From NCBI RefSeq assembly GCF_040954645.1, contig NC_092807.1:50352991-50416990 (forward strand): 64,000 nt of DNA. Reading direction: 5' to 3'. The translations under genes and the position numbers were made by a program. Each line of letters begins with the position of its first letter. Position 1 is the stretch's first letter. The stretch is from Diabrotica undecimpunctata (taxonomy: Eukaryota; Arthropoda; Insecta; Coleoptera; Chrysomelidae). Shown here piece by piece: positions 3,880 through 27,689 of the stretch. The notes beneath the pieces are model-generated. The model was not told the origin of the DNA and searched no databases. It saw only the letters and a program-made list of their open reading frames with translations.

Positions 3880-5314
3880 GGAATGCAATAAAAATTTGAT
3901 AAATATATGGTAAACAATTTTAAAAAAAGTTATTTAAAAAAGGGATAAAAATAACAACCATTCATTATTTATCGAATCATAGTAGAATGTTCTGTCGGTA
4001 ATCAAGAACACAAGTAGAAAATTCGAATATATTATTTATATTTCACGTAATAAGTTTAATATAAAAAAAGAATTTAATTATATGGGGAGCATCCTTGTCG
4101 GACACCTTATTCTGGATTGAATTCGTTTGAGAGTGTGTCAAGCACTTTAACTGTTTAAAGCCAAATTAAATAAAGTGTTGTGCTACGCCTACTTCTGTTA
4201 GTATCTGCCATAAGTGCTTGATAATATATCAAACAAATATATAGTGGGATATGTGGATGTTTTACTGACATTCAGTTTATGTATGCAGTACGTCATAGGA
4301 TTCGCTTTAGAGACTGTAGATCTGATTCGTGCTAGATCTAATCGAGAACGCGTCCTTGATTATGATTGGGAAAAACTCTTTTCATATGGCCGGAAGAACC
4401 CTTACGCTGACACAACGCAGTAGCAGTGTTATAAGATTTCTTAACAATTGGTAACATTACATTTTTACTGGGGACCGTCTTGTTATACACATCGATACTT
4501 TTCAGGCAATTTCAGGCGGTACTGTTTATTTTGGCAAATACTGTATATGTGAAACACAATTTTGGGGAAATATCTAGAAAAAAGCGTCGGGATATCCTGA
4601 TATAATTTATAAGACATCTAATATAATGTAAGACAGAGATCTTATTCCTTGAAGTAAACGGCCAATTCAACAAAAAAATTTCAGTTTTACCCTTTTCTTA
4701 GCAAAAACTATCCGGTCGTAAAAAATCAAGTGATTGTTTAATGTAAGGCAAATTAGCCCTTACTTTCCCCATAACAATGAAGTGATGAAAATATCCAGCA
4801 AAAAAGGAACTCGACGAACTCTGATGGCAAAACGAAAAACAATTAGCCTCGAGAGGCAAAAATTGGAAGGAAAAAAAGGCTGCAGGCGGAACTACAGCAA
4901 AAACTTATAATTAATACGGGTTAGGGATAAAAGTAATCCGATACGGAGGCTGATTATAAAATTTTCGAGAATAATTTCCCGGAGAAATATTTCTACCAGA
5001 TAGTATATCACAAACTTAGAAGTAATAATCCGAAAGCTTTTAATTACTCTCAAGGTGGTTTCGTTATTAATCGTTTATTAACGGCGATATTTTGTGACAG
5101 GATCGGCTTTTTCAACGCTAAGAGGATGTCGTTGGCTTAAGATGTAAACTGCAGAACTAGTAATTTTACAGAATATAAAAAAGCAAATAAGAGAATAACG
5201 CTGTTACGTAAAATAAATTTGATTAAAAGGTTTTGACACACTATGAGAGATTAAAAGTAAAAAATATTTATTGAATAAAAGGTATTTAAAGACTGAAACG
5301 AAGCAATAATGCTA
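3880..5314. other. Non-genic sequence
   Basis: I see no gene or recognisable transposon domain in this stretch. Short frames such as the 69-residue one near 4214 do not resemble a known family. Confidence 0.35.
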
Positions 5315-5333
5315 TTAACCCATTAATTGATAA

Positions 5334-6210
5334 TGTATCTTTAACGATACATATCTATTGTATGTATGTATTAACGTATTTTCTTCAAAATTATGCCAGT
5401 TTTGTCGTCTCCGGTGTAATTAATAAACGTATGAAAAGTCGATAGCATCTTGGTGCAAGTTTCCATGTTTATTAATGTCAATGCGCAATATGTTGCAATA
5501 TTGCGTAGTTAGCCGGTACGCTCTTATTGTGGCATTGTCTTGAAAAAGACAATGCCTTTATGGTTTATTTACTTTTGTAGAAATAAAACACAGGTTTTCT
5601 AAGAAGAAAAAAACTCAGCTGCAGAGTCTTAGAAAATTCGCAGAGCCCTTCGAGCAAAGTGCTCTAGGGAGCTACCCTAGACGGGTAAAACCATACTGAC
5701 TTGAGATCCGAAAATGTCCCATATTTAAACATAAATTAACGTTTATATCAAACTTTTTCATTTCTCAACCAATTAAATTTAATTATAAGTTCCAGAAGGA
5801 AGGGCGATGCACATCGAGGTGCGTGATTGGTGGCACCTGATAACAGTTTTTGGTAATGTATCTTTAAATACACTCTTCCTTTATAACTCGTTGCGAGTCG
5901 CCATCTATAAGGTCTATTGCAAACTTTCTACAGGTGACGTAAATCTAGCATGTTGCAATTTTTAGGTTAGTGAACTAACTGATCACATGTAAACAGTGTT
6001 TATTGAAAAGTTTTTAGAGATTTAGTATGCTGATACCTGTATATATTGGTAAAGGTAAGTCTACTGAGATATAATATTAAGTTGTTTGTTCCATATATTC
6101 TATAATAATTTTTGTATGAAGTCTCATTTAAAACTATGTATCTTAAGAGACACATTGCCGGGTTCTCAGTTATAACCAAATTTTAGTGGTATCTTAAAAT
6201 ATACATTGCC
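5334..6210. promoter_or_regulatory. Four TGTATC(T)TTAA palindromic subterminal motifs
   Basis: Related short palindromes lie at 5334-5351 (perfect 6-bp arms TGTATC/GATACA), 5858-5874, 6137-6154 and 6189-6204. The last two are followed by ATTGCC. All lie between the TTAA end and the first coding exon. By analogy with piggyBac internal repeats they could be transposase-binding sites. This is inference. Confidence 0.45.
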
Positions 6211-6564: not shown

Positions 6565-6576
6565 CTCCAGAGTTTT
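6565..6576. repeat. Target-site duplication, left copy (12 bp)
   Basis: CTCCAGAGTTTT here is repeated exactly at 7036-7047 and brackets the ribozyme-bearing insertion. Joining the flanks restores one continuous piggyBac-like frame (…FNSPEF then SYPVEI…), which supports a genuine insertion duplication. Confidence 0.85.
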
Positions 6577-6629
6577 GAAATGAAAAAAATGAAAAAGACG
6601 GTAAAGATTCCATTTCATGTACAAATCGT

Positions 6630-6689
6630 CTATGTATCTGTTTATACGTATTTCGCTTTAATAAAGCTCATCAGAACAGTTATTCATAG
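6630..6689 (-). ncRNA. Type I hammerhead ribozyme (minus-strand copy)
   Basis: Read on the minus strand this is identical over 60 nt to the plus-strand copy at 6824-6883. It has outer stem I CTATG/CATAG, inner stem I CTGTT/AACAG, core CTGATGA, stem II GCTTT/AAAGC, GAAA, the self-complementary TACGTA of a minimal stem III, and the cleavage dinucleotide TA. Activity is inferred from structure only. Confidence 0.8.
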
Positions 6690-6823
6690 GCGTTCTCAAC
6701 GTGAAAAATAGATCTTTCCTGTCTTAAGAAGCAACAATAAAATGGCTTCGAAATGGACGCAATAGCGACATCTGATATTAAATCTTAAGATCAGGAAAGA
6801 TCTATTTTTCACGTTGAGAACGC

Positions 6824-6883
6824 CTATGAATAACTGTTCTGATGAGCTTTATTAAAGCGAAATACGTATAAACAGATACATAG
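6824..6883 (+). ncRNA. Type I hammerhead ribozyme
   Basis: In order: outer stem I 6824-6828 (CTATG) pairs with 6879-6883 (CATAG); inner stem I 6834-6838 (CTGTT) pairs with 6871-6875 (AACAG); core CTGATGA 6839-6845; stem II 6846-6858 (GCTTT, 3-nt loop, AAAGC) directly abutting the core; GAAA 6859-6862; palindromic TACGTA 6863-6868, a minimal stem III that would pair best in a dimer; then T and A at 6869-6870, giving an NUH (AUA) cleavage triplet. All invariant hammerhead core positions are present. Compared with the copies at 24033, stems I and II carry compensatory changes. Confidence 0.87.
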
Positions 6884-7035
6884 ACGAAATGGAATCTTTA
6901 CTGTCTTTTTCATTTTATTAGGATCTACTCTGTGTGAGTACAAGAAACCAATTCGCTAACGATTTCTGCTTGCAATTTATAGAAGGCTCAGATTAAGGCA
7001 GTTATCTGAATTGTGTTTCGAAACTATTTTACGGG

Positions 7036-7047
7036 CTCCAGAGTTTT
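7036..7047. repeat. Target-site duplication, right copy (12 bp)
   Basis: Exact repeat of 6565-6576 flanking the retrozyme-like insertion. Confidence 0.85.
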
Positions 7048-11394: not shown

Positions 11395-11398
<4 letters not shown>

Positions 11399-11888
11399 AA
11401 CACAGTTTATTAGGGCTGCAGTCAGTAGGTTTGGCCGGGATGTTATAGAAACACTCTGTTGACTTTTGGTCGAGCTTTCGGAATTCTTTTATACCTTCTT
11501 CAAGACACTGTAATTAGAAGAAAGTGTAAATATTTACAACATATCTCAAATTGTCATGACAACTTACTAGTCGTTGAGATTATTTGTGTAAAGCTACGAC
11601 ACTCAACATTAAAAAATGTTTTTAAAATTTTTTTTTTAATGTTGAGTGTCGTAGGTTTACACAAATAATCTCAACGACTAGTAAGTTGTAATGACAATTT
11701 GAGATATGTTGTAAATATTTACACTTTCTTCTAATTACAGTGTCTTAAAGAAGGAATAAAAGAATTCCGAAAGCTCGACCAAAAGTAAAAAGAGTGTTTC
11801 TATAACATCCCGGCCAAACCTACTGACTGCAACCCTAATAAAACTGTGTTGTTTGTTTATATCGACAGTCAATAATATCCAGTATTTG

Positions 11889-11890
<2 letters not shown>
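11395..11890. mobile_element. Penelope-like 3' end as a palindrome
   Basis: Arms at 11395-11613 and 11636-11854 are reverse complements of each other around an A/T-rich 22-bp centre. The sequence is the same family as the 711-bp arms at 23259-25642, sharing AACAACACAGTTTATTAGGG, TTGGCCGGGATGTTA and CTAGTCGTTGAGATTATTT. The right arm continues 36 bp further (CGACAGTCAATAATATCCAG) into (TA)n, as it does at 25643-25677, so this is the true 3' end. No coding sequence is left. Both 3' ends face outward. Confidence 0.75.

Positions 11891-11938
<48 letters not shown>
11891..11938. repeat. (TA)n array, right of a PLE palindrome
   Basis: A run of 24 AT dinucleotides immediately after the PLE 3' end. 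Confidence 0.97.
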
Positions 11939-22261: not shown

Positions 22262-22935
22262 GAAATAATTTTCCCTGCTGATTATGAGCGACGGATAGTG
22301 TTTTGTGAGGACATGATGGATGACGCACTAATCGTGACGAAGATTTCATGAAAAAAATCTTGTTTACAGACGAATCTTTTTTTCTTTAACTGGCTATCAC
22401 AATCCGTCTGTTACCGTAGGGCCCTCTACAGAAAATATGCACATGTGTTCCTTACAAAACACAATACCGTCAAAAAGTCAACGTCTGGGCTGGTATATTA
22501 GGTGACAACGTAATTGGCCCTTTTTTAATTGTAGGCACTTTGTATCATCGTAAATACCTAGATCTCTTAAAAAATCACGTAATTCTAGCAGTTCGAGCAT
22601 TGCCTATTATTATGGATGAAATTTGGTTGCCGCAAGCTGGCTGTCCAGCTCACAATGCACGGGAGGTGTTAGATGTTTTAAACATTACGTTTCCAGAGAC
22701 AGATATTAGTACAAAAGGTACCATAAAAATGCCACCTCGCTCTTCCGATCTTGCACCTTTGGAATTTTTCGTATGGGGTTATGTGAAGCTACAAATTTAC
22801 CGGCATGAGGATGAACGTACCGGAAATTTAGACGAATTACGTTAAAAAATCATTCAGCTTTTAAAGCATAACACCACAAAGGTTGCAGCCACAGAAGGCT
22901 GATGTTGTCTTAATGCCTTATGGTCAGATATTTTT
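22262..22935 (+). pseudogene. Tc1/mariner-like (DD34E-type) transposase pseudogene
   Basis: Plus-strand pieces: DYERRIVFCEDMMDD near 22280, the SCLQTNLFF region where a FTDES catalytic block is decayed (near 22360), KVNVWAGILGDNVIGP at about 22465-22520, LYHRKYLDLLKNHVI at 22540, DEIWLPQAGCPAHNAREVLD at about 22610-22670 (the second catalytic D, from QDGAPAH, replaced), and PPRSSDLAPLEFFVWGYVK at about 22730-22790 (the W-P-xRSPDLTPLDFFLWG block, with the final acidic residue at L-E). Several stops lie upstream. From memory this is the insect group with the DUF4817 helix-turn-helix. Terminal repeats were not found. Confidence 0.8.
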
Positions 22936-22994: not shown

Positions 22995-23782
22995 GTCATG
23001 GACTAAATAACTAAATAACGCGGGAAAGCGATGACGAACAGTTCAAGACAGGAAGAAAAAAATTGGGTTAAGTAAAGGGCAGCAAAATTCCTAATTTTGT
23101 TCATTTCGAAACTATTAAGCAACTAGTGATAAATCTTTGTAAGTATATGGGTGTCTTTAATCCAACCCTGTACCTAATCATGGATACGAGAAATTAGTCT
23201 TGGCAGGCCACCCGTTAATATATATTCAATACTTGCACTATAACATATATATATATACAAACAACACAGTTTATTAGGGTTGCAGTCAGAAAATTGGCCG
23301 GGATGTTAATGAAACACTCTTATGACTTTTCGTCTAGCTTTCGGAATCGTTTTGTTCCTTTTTCAAGACACTATAATAAGAAAAAAGTGTAAATATTTAT
23401 AAAATATCACAAATCTTCAGTGCAACTTACTAGTCGTTGAGATTATTTACAAAAGCATAGACACTCAACATTAATATCAACACACATAAAATATAAAATA
23501 GTGGACAAAATACATTTAAAATTCTTTAAAATTTAGGTACAAGTAGTAAAAATTTTGTTGTCATCTTTTACTAGTGTGTTTTAACTCTGGCACATAGAGA
23601 ACAAAAAGAAAAAATCCTATGATTAAAAAGTAATTAGGTGTATTTAATATCATGTTTCTTTTTAAGAAATACTAGAGGCCCATCTTAGGTGATTTTAATT
23701 TTTAAACCTGTCTTAATGGTATGCAACATGTTATGCATATAACTGTAATTTGTGTGGGTATGGGTACAGGTAGATATTAATT

Positions 23783-23986
23783 TTATTTTGGATGTTTTTC
23801 CAGTAAGTAACAATAAATGTTGCTCAGTTTATCTATGTCTGACTTTTTATTGATGCAAGATGTACTTGATTTTATGGAACACATTTCCAAGAAACCACGT
23901 TTTGAATGGTTCTTTTCCTTTGCCAAAATACAGGAATCCTCGAAATTAAATTCATGTTTCAACGTTAATGCATGTTCTGTCAACAT
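23783..23986 (-). pseudogene. Penelope-like protein C-terminus
   Basis: A 67-residue open frame on the minus strand. It contains TEHALTLKHEFNFED, ILAKEKNHSKRGFLEM and NKKSDIDKLSNIYCYLLEKH, matching the conserved tail of PLE proteins (…HxxxxxHxxxWxxxxILxxExxxxxRxxLExxxIxxxxxxxNxxxDxxxLSxxY…). Its reverse-complement partner lies in the right arm. The GIY-YIG core and reverse transcriptase are absent in both arms. Confidence 0.7.
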
Positions 23987-23990
23987 GAAT

Positions 23991-24000
23991 TTAATTATTA
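23991..24000. repeat. Target-site duplication, left (10 bp)
   Basis: TTAATTATTA, repeated at 24926-24935, brackets the tandem hammerhead array. Removing the array rejoins the two PLE arms through a short loop. Confidence 0.7.
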
Positions 24001-24032
24001 GAGACAGAGAAGAATTGTTTCACGTTCAGAGC

Positions 24033-24095
24033 GCTTGCGAAAGCCGTTCTGATGATGCCTATTGGGCTGAAATACGTATAAACGGATGCGCAAGC
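24033..24095 (+). ncRNA. Type I hammerhead ribozyme, unit 1
   Basis: Outer stem I 24033-24039 (GCTTGCG) pairs with 24089-24095 (CGCAAGC); internal loop AAAG/ATG; inner stem I 24044-24048 (CCGTT) pairs with 24081-24085 (AACGG); core CTGATGA 24049-24055; stem II 24056-24068 (GCC, loop, GGC inside a U-U closing mismatch); GAAA 24069-24072; self-complementary TACGTA 24073-24078; T and A at 24079-24080 give an AUA cleavage triplet. Three stem II pairs and 12 stem I pairs are perfect. Confidence 0.87.
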
Positions 24096-24430
24096 TCCCT
24101 ATACGTGAAATAAAATCTTAACTGTCTTTTCCTTGTTATTTCGATATACTCTGTACGAGTACTAGAAACCAATTCGCTAAGAATTTTGCTTAGTTGAAAA
24201 GATATGTTGTGGAATGCAAGTTTTAGATTCCCCATGTCTCTCTTAACACCTTTATCAACGTCTGTTTTTGCCTTGCAATTCTTAGAAGGCACAGATTAAA
24301 GCGGAATTCTTGAATTTGGTTTCGAAAATTAGTCTACGATTTTATTATCAGATGTCGCTACATTGCGTCTATACGAAGCCATGTTATAGTTGCTTCCTAA
24401 GACAGAGAAGAATTGTTTCACGTTCAGAGC

Positions 24431-24493
24431 GCTTGCGAAAGCCGTTCTGATGATGCCTATTGGGCTGAAATACGTATAAACGGATGCGCAAGC
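24431..24493 (+). ncRNA. Type I hammerhead ribozyme, unit 2
   Basis: Same 63-nt ribozyme as unit 1, offset by 398 bp; all core residues and stems are preserved. Confidence 0.87.
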
Positions 24494-24828
24494 TCCCTAT
24501 ACGTTAAATAAAATCTTGACTGTCTTTTCCTTGTTATTTCGATATACTCTGTACGAGTACTAGAAACCAATTCGCTAAGAATTTTGCTTAGTTGAAAAGA
24601 TATGTTGTGGAATGCAAGTTTTAGATTCCCCATGTCTCTCTTAACACCTTTATCAACGTCTGTTTTTGCCTTGCAATTCTTAGAAGGCACAGATTAAAGC
24701 GGAATTCTTGAATTTGGTTTCGAAAATTAGTCTACGATTTTATTATCAGATGTCGCTACATTGCGTCTATACGAAGCCATGTTATAGTTGCTTCCTAAGA
24801 CAGAGAAGAATTGTTTCACGTTCAGAGC

Positions 24829-24891
24829 GCTTGCGAAAGCCGTTCTGATGATGCCTATTGGGCTGAAATACGTATAAACGGATGCGCAAGC
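24829..24891 (+). ncRNA. Type I hammerhead ribozyme, unit 3
   Basis: Same ribozyme, a further 398 bp downstream; the unit is truncated about 34 bp after the ribozyme. Cleavage at units 1-2 and 2-3 would release a 398-nt monomer. Confidence 0.87.
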
Positions 24892-24925
24892 TCCCTATAC
24901 GTGAAATAAAACTGTCTTTTCCTTG

Positions 24926-24935
24926 TTAATTATTA
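24926..24935. repeat. Target-site duplication, right (10 bp)
   Basis: TTAATTATTA, identical to 23991-24000. Confidence 0.7.
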
Positions 24936-25675
24936 ACGTTGAAACATGAATTTAATTTCGAGGATTCCTGTATTTTGGCAAAGGAAAAGAACCATTCAAA
25001 ACGTGTTTTCTTGGAAATGTGTTCCATAAAATCAAGTACATCTTGCATCAATAAAAAGTCAGACATAGATAAACTGAGCAACATTTATTGTTACTTACTG
25101 GAAAAACATCCAAAATAAAATTAATATCTACCTGTACCCGTACCCACACAAATTACAGTTATATGCATAACATGTTGCATACCATTAAGACAGGTTTAAA
25201 AATTAAAATCACCTAAGATGGGCCTCTAGTATTTCTTAAAAAGAAACATGATATTAAATACACCTAATTACTTTTTAATCATAGGATTTTTTCTTTTTGT
25301 TCTCTATGTGCCAGAGTTAAAACACACTAGTAAAAGATGACAACAAAATTTTTACTACTTGTACCTAAATTTTAAAGAATTTTAAATGTATTTTGTCCAC
25401 TATTTTATATTTTATGTGTGTTGTTATTAATGTTGAGTGTCTATGCTTTTGTAAATAATCTCAACGACTAGTAAGTTGCACTGAAGATTTGTGATATTTT
25501 ATAAATATTTACACTTTTTTCTTATTATAGTGTCTTGAAAAAGGAACAAAACGATTCCGAAAGCTAGACGAAAAGTCATAAGAGTGTTTCATTAACATCC
25601 CGGCCAATTTTCTGAATGCAACCCTAATAAACTGTGTTGTTTGTTTATATTGACAGTCACTAATATCCAGTAATT

Positions 25676-25677
<2 letters not shown>

Positions 25678-25733
<56 letters not shown>
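25678..25733. repeat. (TA)n array, right of the PLE pair
   Basis: 28 TA units directly following the PLE 3' end. Confidence 0.97.
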
Positions 25734-26579: not shown

Positions 26580-27384
26580 CTATCTTCGGAAATACCATAT
26601 TGTAGGCAGTCGGAGCAAATACACTTTTGCGTGTTCTAAGCATACAAATTTGTGGCATTTTTGACAGATATATCTGGTTGGCCTATTTTTTTGTCTACTA
26701 CAGTAAAAACAACGACCGCGACGATTAGGTTGTGGATTTGGGGCTGAACCAATTCCTTCTTCAATATGGCAAATTTCTTTTATTCTTGACCTAATTGATC
26801 TAGAAATACGTTTATTCAAAAAACGACGTTGCAGATGATCGTTTACTAGTTCCATACCAAAAGCTTCTAGAAAATGTCTTCTAGGCATTTTATCTATCTC
26901 ATTAGATTTATATTTGTTTATTACAAATGAATTAATAGCAGCTACATTCATTGCAGAATAAAAGGCGAGTGGCTCGAGCGCAATTGTAGGCGCCACACAT
27001 TTTATCAACTAGATCTACTCCTCCTTTGGATACATTTTTCTCTAAAAGCAAACATACTTTTTTCTGGTCTCTTAGGATCAGTATATTGAAGTGGAAGCTC
27101 TCTTTTGTTTTTTCTGATAGTGCCTATCATAGTCAGATGACGTTCGTTCAAAAGAAGATCGGGCAAGCGAAGGCTCATAAAAAAATTGTCCATTGTTACA
27201 TTTCTGTGAGAACCAGATATAGGACTGCAGAGGCGAGGAACGAGGGAAATATTGCTCGTATTAACTTTATATGGGCCAGGTGGCTGTTGTCCAATGTACA
27301 CCTTTAGATTTGCGGTATAAAGAAACGGAAGCTTTTCAAGATATGCTTGTTGTTTTTCAAAACTCATATTCAAAAAATCTGTAA
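26580..27384 (-). pseudogene. piggyBac-like transposase, C-terminal half
   Basis: Minus strand. A TTTTTTACAG acceptor ends about 27385. Then: YLEKLPFLYTANLKVYIGQQ; GSHRNVTMDNFFMSLRLPDL, with the D of MDN equivalent to the second catalytic Asp of piggyBac; LTMIGTIRKNKRELPLQYTD; SMFAF, followed by an internal deletion; SKGGVDLVDKM (third catalytic Asp) read in a different frame near 27000; FYSAMNVAAINSFVI; EAFGMELVNDHLQRR. It ends with the Cys-rich GRCFYCSRQKNRPTRYICQK…CLEH zinc-binding domain. At least two frameshifts and the deletion make it non-functional. The N-terminal half is missing, and the 5315-7330 fragment is a separate copy. Confidence 0.9.
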
Positions 27385-27421
27385 AAAATAAGTTTATATC
27401 AATCAAATATACAGAAAACAT

Positions 27422-27689
27422 AATTAGTAGATCACTCCCAATTATAAATTACATCAATATTTTAAAACTGAATCTAACCTGAAGATTTGTGACAACTTAC
27501 GTGTGGACTCACGTTTCGCAATTCAATATTGTACCAGAACCAAATGTACTAGACAACTCTCACAACTGTACTGAATAGAGTATCCCTTCGCTTGAAGCTA
27601 GCGAGCACGCCACGACCGAAATCATAATGATTAGTCAGAAATTGACAAATAATGCGACAAGCGGATAAAAAAGGTCTCGAATTCATTCT
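27422..27689. other. Non-genic spacer
   Basis: Upstream of the piggyBac exon on the minus strand; it could hold its intron or 5' part, but nothing is recognisable. Confidence 0.35.

Follow-up and report, generated by a model that had tools for sequence, protein, structure and literature searches.

The tandem 398-bp repeat analysed here is a metazoan retrozyme, and its array in the window (the whole stretch of 64,000 nucleotides of Diabrotica undecimpunctata DNA that was analysed) is one insertion of a non-autonomous family. It bears on which enzyme moves animal retrozymes. Copying by an enzyme of the Penelope-like element (PLE) type, from RNA circles onto both strands of the cut target, was found to be a fairly probable answer, supported and not proven. 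The support comes from the signature left by the insertions and not from the nesting of the window array in a PLE. The family is young and has left dozens of clean insertions, which makes the proposal testable: it has two RNA start points, a 12-bp symmetric target and a rule for the pairing of ends that is echoed by PLE pairs of the same genome.

Tandem Repeats Finder gave a period of 398, 2.3 copies and 99% matches at 24002-24911. In the alignment a third, partial unit runs on to 24928 with a 6-base deletion, and the window array was therefore taken as 24002-24928. Its features are as follows.

23991..24000, no strand: target duplication TTAATTATTA, left copy
24002..24399, + strand: retrozyme unit 1, 398 bp (Tandem Repeats Finder, alignment)
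24400..24797, + strand: retrozyme unit 2, 398 bp, differing from unit 1 at two positions
24798..24928, + strand: partial unit 3, the hammerhead hairpin alone with a 6-base deletion, stopping at the family 3' point A (unit nt ~137)
24049..24080, + strand: type I hammerhead core 1, predicted cleavage after 24080 (motif scan)
24447..24478, + strand: type I hammerhead core 2, predicted cleavage after 24478 (motif scan)
24845..24876, + strand: type I hammerhead core 3, predicted cleavage after 24876 (motif scan)
24926..24935, no strand: target duplication TTAATTATTA, right copy, its first 3 bases overlapping the unit end

The original prediction of three ribozymes exactly 398 bp apart agrees with the cores at 24049, 24447 and 24845, and the 10-bp direct repeat said to bracket the array was present as TTAATTATTA at 23991-24000 and 24926-24935. 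CTGATGA, a stem I of 5 inner and 7 outer bp, a palindromic stem III and the AUA triplet, all part of the same prediction, were observed in each of the three copies. Outside stem I lie two extra pairing segments of 8 bp (one mismatch in copy 2) and 6 bp, and the arms reach outwards to AGACAG...CTGTCT. Stem III has 2 bp with an ACGU loop, forming the palindrome AUACGUAU, which would permit pairing of the hammerheads as dimers. Stem II had been described as short; its 3 bp are present, but the closing pair 10.1/11.1, which that description glossed over, is U-U. The rest of the core is standard. The predicted cut lies between nt 79 and 80 of the unit. The array has the order ribozyme-spacer-ribozyme-spacer-ribozyme, and the unit is noncoding, with a longest open frame of 78 codons and a GC content of 0.377.

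A minimal type I hammerhead, as first proposed, fits less well than a canonical type I ribozyme similar to HHR_Amex2 of the axolotl, in which, according to PMC7229834, helix II has a U-U at its base and helix III consists of 2 bp closed by a tetraloop. The same source reports that monomers of an axolotl repeat with HHR_Amex2 were cleaved to 22% within an hour, and that cleavage of dimers was much better. For PLEs the ribozymes are described as minimal, whereas the retrozyme ribozyme is canonical type I with an extended stem I.

The covariance-model search of 23900-25000, named in the original prediction as a check whose failure would refute it, came out negative, with no hammerhead at E≤10, and Rfam over the whole window gave no match at gathering thresholds. 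After negatives at both thresholds Rfam was dropped, and a motif scan with a control, together with covariation, was used instead. The full type I motif was found at 5 distinct sites in the window, compared to 1 site in 100 simulated windows of the same dinucleotide frequencies. The remaining two sites belong to a diverged relative.

6577..7035, no strand: second, diverged retrozyme, a head-to-head palindrome with a canonical (perfect) stem II, blocks about 70-85% identical
6565-6576 and 7036-7047: 12-bp duplication CTCCAGAGTTTT of the diverged retrozyme

The units examined are all nearly identical, so conservation within the family was useless as evidence. Between the window unit and the diverged relative, seven pairs are altered on both sides with pairing kept, three pairs are broken (33/93 in stem I; 2/125 and 3/124 in the outermost segment) and four pairs of the 8-bp segment have lost one side. 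Two other old copies (L048 and L034) have more broken pairs. Covariation thus supports the predicted ribozyme stems. In Rfam the diverged relative gave a sub-threshold Hammerhead_3 match of 17.8 bits (gathering 48.5), and the palindrome scored higher with hairpin models of other families. Minimum-energy folding did not give a three-way junction: the best fold has -48.0 kcal/mol and the hammerhead fold -42.4 kcal/mol. The folding program ignores the tertiary contacts or dimers by which short stems II and III are stabilised, and the folding energy was therefore counted neither for nor against the ribozyme. Two viral contigs (L068, L069) also match CTGATGA N8-18 GAAATACGTATA.

The search of the 1.74-Gb genome that the original prediction had proposed gave at least 227 matches to the 398-bp unit, and flanking duplications of at least 9 nt were found at 31 of the 39 arrays studied. 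These 39 comprise the two window arrays and 37 further stretches, which represent 36 places among the best-scoring entries of the match list and total 181 kb, with 186 to 4766 bases of flank; the cluster C1:59680168-59686701 was left out. Sampling from the best-scoring matches favours recent copies. The longest arms reach up to ~14.8 units (L031). The copies are dispersed, with target duplications longer than 4 bp, and the tandem, noncoding, low-GC unit with a type I hammerhead lies within the 150-450 bp range of metazoan non-LTR retrozymes. As described in PMC7229834, such retrozymes share with the present family tandem noncoding low-GC units of ~170-400 bp, type I hammerheads, target duplications of more than 4 bp and the presence of PLEs in the same genome; HHR_Amex2 also shares the U-U at helix II and the 2-bp helix III. 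The animal-retrozyme organisation assigned to the window array at the outset thus holds, since a tandem unit, type I hammerheads and a target duplication were found, inside a PLE-derived palindrome.

The consensus was matched exactly by 51 of the 97 full units (31 loci). Recurrent variants occur at four unit positions, and at three of them the variant is shared by every full unit of the arrays concerned: position 16 in 4/4, 3/3, 2/2 and 2/2 units, position 140 in 4/4 and A at position 8 in 2/2. The variants are thus specific to arrays. The exception is a C-to-T change at unit nt 37 in five consecutive units of nine in one arm (L044, units at 3927-5519), which is not explained by simple copying of one circle. 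When locus labels were shuffled, 58 of 1000 shuffles gave a value as low, so that overall support for likeness within loci is weak; with units that are mostly identical or almost identical, this is to be expected. Satellite-like DNA spread by recombination, with the hammerhead as a passive relic, would also consist of tandem, noncoding units (longest open frame here 78 codons). Such an origin is highly improbable, given the compensatory changes in the ribozyme stems and the short, dispersed arrays, which in most cases have a target duplication of their own and end at a fixed 3' point.

Duplications of the target are a regular feature of the insertions. In a comparison of 34 arrays, duplications of at least 10 nt were found at 25, compared to 18 of 1122 re-paired flanks used as control. 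That count includes an old 75% fragment in L034, dropped from the duplication and end counts of the 39 arrays, and a shortened L057, complete in the count of 39. Among the 31 duplications of at least 9 nt, 17 are exactly 12 bp; eight of the 39 arrays are without a duplication of this length. The target was found to be AA(C/A)^N12^(A/G)TT and is two-fold symmetric. AA precedes the duplication at -3,-2 in 27 of 31 arrays (control mean 4.3, maximum 9, from positions 8-49 further out), and TT follows it at +2,+3 in 18 of 31 (mean 4.5, maximum 8, from the same positions). In the duplication and flank-base counts the row of the window array uses a wrong repeat, the 15-nt AACATGAATTTAATT instead of TTAATTATTA. 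An earlier flank-base tally omits L040, L041 and L050, by hand; L040 and L050 are included in the set of 39. Because the two sides of the target are reverse complementary, its geometry suggests that each strand is cut just 5' of (A/G)TT, leaving 3' overhangs of ~12 nt that would both be able to prime.

The ends of the arrays were found to be fixed as well. The 39 arrays consist of 26 that run in one direction and 13 head-to-head palindromes. The 3' end lies at unit nt 133-140 (point A) in 24 of the 26 one-direction arrays, the exceptions being L045 (nt 26) and L065 (nt 93); none ends at the second point, B. Ten of the 13 palindromes have one end at A (129-147) and the other at B (326-347), and neither A/A nor B/B was observed. 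The remaining three are L032 (A, 305), L034 (A, 391) and L057 (83, B). The chance of ten palindromes all being A/B is ~0.001 if ends are drawn independently at the pooled frequencies. The ends of WIN2 were counted at 129 and 326 as given by the BLAST alignment; by eye they lie some bases further on. The ribozyme does not produce these ends, since its cut lies at 79/80 and the ends at A and B, which are ~207 nt apart. Both points lie in largely unpaired AU-rich stretches of the predicted fold of the circle, ranking 0.94 and 0.86 among the 398 positions. TTTT lies a few bases upstream of A, and no poly(A) was found at A.

LINEs also show variable 5' ends, target duplications and inverted copies, and several window ORFs resemble LINE reverse transcriptases by eye. 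A LINE-type enzyme would act by ordinary target-primed reverse transcription, with the inversions made by L1-like twin priming. A fixed internal start at A without poly(A), a second start mostly within 326-347 and not scattered, and specific bases placed symmetrically around the two cuts all speak against it, and a LINE-type enzyme is regarded as quite unlikely.

Copying by a PLE-type enzyme would proceed as follows. Tandem units would be transcribed, and the hammerheads, probably paired as dimers via the palindromic stem III, would cut at unit nt 79/80. A host ligase would close the 398-nt monomer to a circle, by analogy with other animals. A PLE-type reverse transcriptase-endonuclease would cut both strands of the AT-rich AA(C/A)^N12^(A/G)TT, leaving two 3' overhangs of ~12 nt. 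One 3'-OH would prime at the internal point A (nt ~137) of the circle and be extended round it several times. The other 3'-OH, when priming too, would start at B (nt ~326-347), and the two cDNAs would be joined head to head; repair would leave the 12-bp duplication. The window copy would be a case of synthesis in one direction, inserted close to the centre of a PLE palindrome that was already there. We infer the circularity of the template, the PLE identity of the enzyme and the order of the steps; internal initiation, priming on both strands and an AT-rich target, as features of PLE-type mobilisation, were read from genomic ends alone.

The template might instead have been a linear multimeric transcript, A and B being RNA 3' ends from cleavage or termination, with no circle involved. 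The TTTT upstream of A would fit such an origin; arms of up to ~14.8 units could derive from long transcripts, and a multimer of mixed units would agree with the L044 variant in five of nine units. Within arrays, however, the other recurrent variants are fixed, and free RNA ends would not readily give two ends that are never combined as A/A or B/B. A linear template is therefore considered rather unlikely, and circles remain the preferred template.

The DNA on both sides of the window array had been predicted to encode a PLE C-terminus, and this was borne out: a PLE-like ...LTLKHEFNFED...LSNIYCYLLEKHPK* is read outwards on both sides. The arms, and a second pair in the window, are as follows.

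23251..23969, - strand: left arm, PLE-like 3' part with putative C-terminal GIY-YIG-region codons, outer end without tail
24932..25650, + strand: right arm, matching PLE-like 3' part
25645..25679, + strand: 35-nt 'tail', right arm only, ahead of a (TA)n run
11395..11891, no strand: second, related PLE-like head-to-head palindrome, tail (from 11857) on the right end only, (TA)n flanks

The arms of 719 nt are 99% complementary and form an inverted repeat with the array at its centre. They are 5'-truncated and too short for a reverse transcriptase domain, and searches with the arm peptides gave no Pfam family and nothing relevant in NCBIfam and PDB. In longer genomic copies the stretch immediately upstream of the arm reads ...NKIYIGESSRNF...ALTEHALTLKHEFN, also ...NKIYIGESSRNF...KINACALTEHALTLKHEFN. 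From one of these copies, a 101-aa piece matched Pfam GIY-YIG with E 3.1e-4 and 21.4 bits, just below the cut-off of 22.6.

The nesting of the retrozyme in a PLE, which the original prediction took as a physical link between the two, is real; as proof of a link it was rejected. A PLE arm was found at none of the 36 other array places (best BLASTN E 0.032; many flanks just 0.2-0.5 kb), and the centres of two other PLE pairs contained no retrozyme (best E 0.029). The nesting is thus probably incidental. The window array carries the ordinary features of the family and is most likely a separate insertion. The 15-nt AACATGAATTTAATT occurs on both sides of it, within 23970-24001 and 24932-24957. The left arm departs from the PLE sequence at TTGACAG, and the AACATGAATTTAATT that comes next (+ strand) is filler copied from the right arm and does not occur in native PLE copies. 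Once joined, the flanks give AAT^TTAATTATTAAC^GTT and by eye fit the 12-bp family target with 2 bases trimmed on the left; together with TTAATTATTA around the array, this points to a later insertion near the centre of the PLE palindrome as the most likely history.

The main rival for this locus is a composite event, in which a PLE cDNA jumped onto retrozyme RNA, so that arms and array entered the site as one. A distance of no more than ~32 bases between the array and the PLE-PLE junction is in its favour. Foreign sequence can also join retrozyme insertions, as seen at L047:2260-2914 (-), where two retrozyme arms enclose a death-domain reading frame (Pfam E 1.6e-5) together with some sequence ahead of its first ATG; this is probably a host mRNA copied by template jumping. 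A composite event is nonetheless unlikely, since TTAATTATTA flanks the array itself, the joined flanks fit the family target in spite of the trimmed bases, and the combination was seen neither at the 36 other places nor in the two other PLE centres. For the preferred separate insertion one may speculate that a cruciform or AT-rich tip at the PLE junction draws the enzyme.

The PLE pairs themselves show an asymmetry. For each of the two window pairs, the left end breaks off at ...TTGTTT(GT), whereas ~35 nt more are present on the right, followed by (TA)n. A search of the genome with the arm gave 47 matches (40 candidates scored) and ten further places with adjacent matches arranged (-,+), head to head; one listed place, C5:63055445-63056740, is arranged (+,-). 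When the ten (-,+) pairs were fetched, the tail was found on exactly one end in nine, on both ends in one and on neither end in none. As in the window pairs, (TA)n adjoins every outer end. In eight of the nine fetched one-tail pairs (L070-L089) and in both window pairs the tail is on the right end, though left and right should be arbitrary.

PMC3846280 describes head-to-head PLE copies in which a tail is optional on one inverted pLTR; duplications of 8-10 bp accompany some copies, and other copies have none. The explanation favoured there is self-priming on an antisense template. Priming from two sides at different fixed starts is a simpler fit to the pairs described here. According to PMC11167929, a purified PLE protein starts reverse transcription at two internal RNA sites without homology to the target; it cuts both strands, extends both, and prefers AT-rich DNA with an ATT motif. 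By these two sources, PLEs share several traits with the retrozyme: reverse transcription starts internally, targets are AT-rich, both strands are cut and extended, copies may stand head to head, one inverted end can carry extra sequence, and some copies have short target duplications. The difference in coding is plain: PLEs encode a reverse transcriptase and a GIY-YIG endonuclease, and the retrozyme unit encodes nothing. Compared to the passages of PMC11167929 consulted, the retrozyme scars have the same features and an extra rule, the two strands of a palindrome starting at different points.

The one-tail asymmetry of the PLE pairs matches the A/B pairing of the retrozyme palindromes and supports PLE-type copying. 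Several observations count against it. The in vitro results of PMC11167929 show no difference in start site between top and bottom strand, and the PLE start sites are ~35 nt apart, compared to ~207 nt from A to B. Five arrays have an end elsewhere (L045, L065, L032, L034, L057), and the L044 variant in five of nine units, the weak shuffle test and the eight of 39 arrays lacking a duplication of 9 nt or more also fit poorly. Since the arms belong to a PLE family that sits in (TA)n and not at the retrozyme target, this family may not supply the helper enzyme; another PLE family may serve instead. A bolder and tentative reading, held at somewhat less than even chances, is that the circular retrozyme RNA is taken up by a PLE particle that is a dimer, and that synthesis on the two strands begins at different fixed points of the circle, invariably at A for the first strand and at B for the second. 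Palindromes would then be finished two-sided products, the tail on one end of the PLE pairs would reflect the same rule, and among RNAs that PLEs can mobilise the retrozyme would be the smallest.

PLEs were proposed as movers of retrozymes in PMC7229834 because both have hammerheads, occur in tandem and share genomes. In contrast to the metazoan non-LTR retrozymes described there, 13 of the 39 arrays are head-to-head palindromes, with two fixed internal ends and a two-fold symmetric target. Among the passages of PMC7229834 consulted and the titles and beginnings of abstracts searched, mostly of open-access literature, no earlier report was found of retrozymes in head-to-head arrays, with fixed internal ends or with a symmetric target. 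Plant LTR retrozymes, as described in PMC7761336, also have a noncoding hammerhead-flanked unit thought to move as circular RNA; they differ in their type III hammerheads, LTRs, PBS/PPT and 4-bp duplications, compared to type I hammerheads and duplications of mostly 12 bp.

Other remnants of mobile elements were observed in the window. A further PLE-like fragment at 28189-28362 matches GIY-YIG with E 4.1e-5 and has a relative at L050:5370-5552 (-). A decayed fragment at 843-956 resembles the C-terminus of the PLE of the arms (45% over 38 aa, E 6e-6). The ORFs at 22420-22845 and 26580-27448 resemble, by eye, remnants of mariner-type and piggyBac-type transposases.
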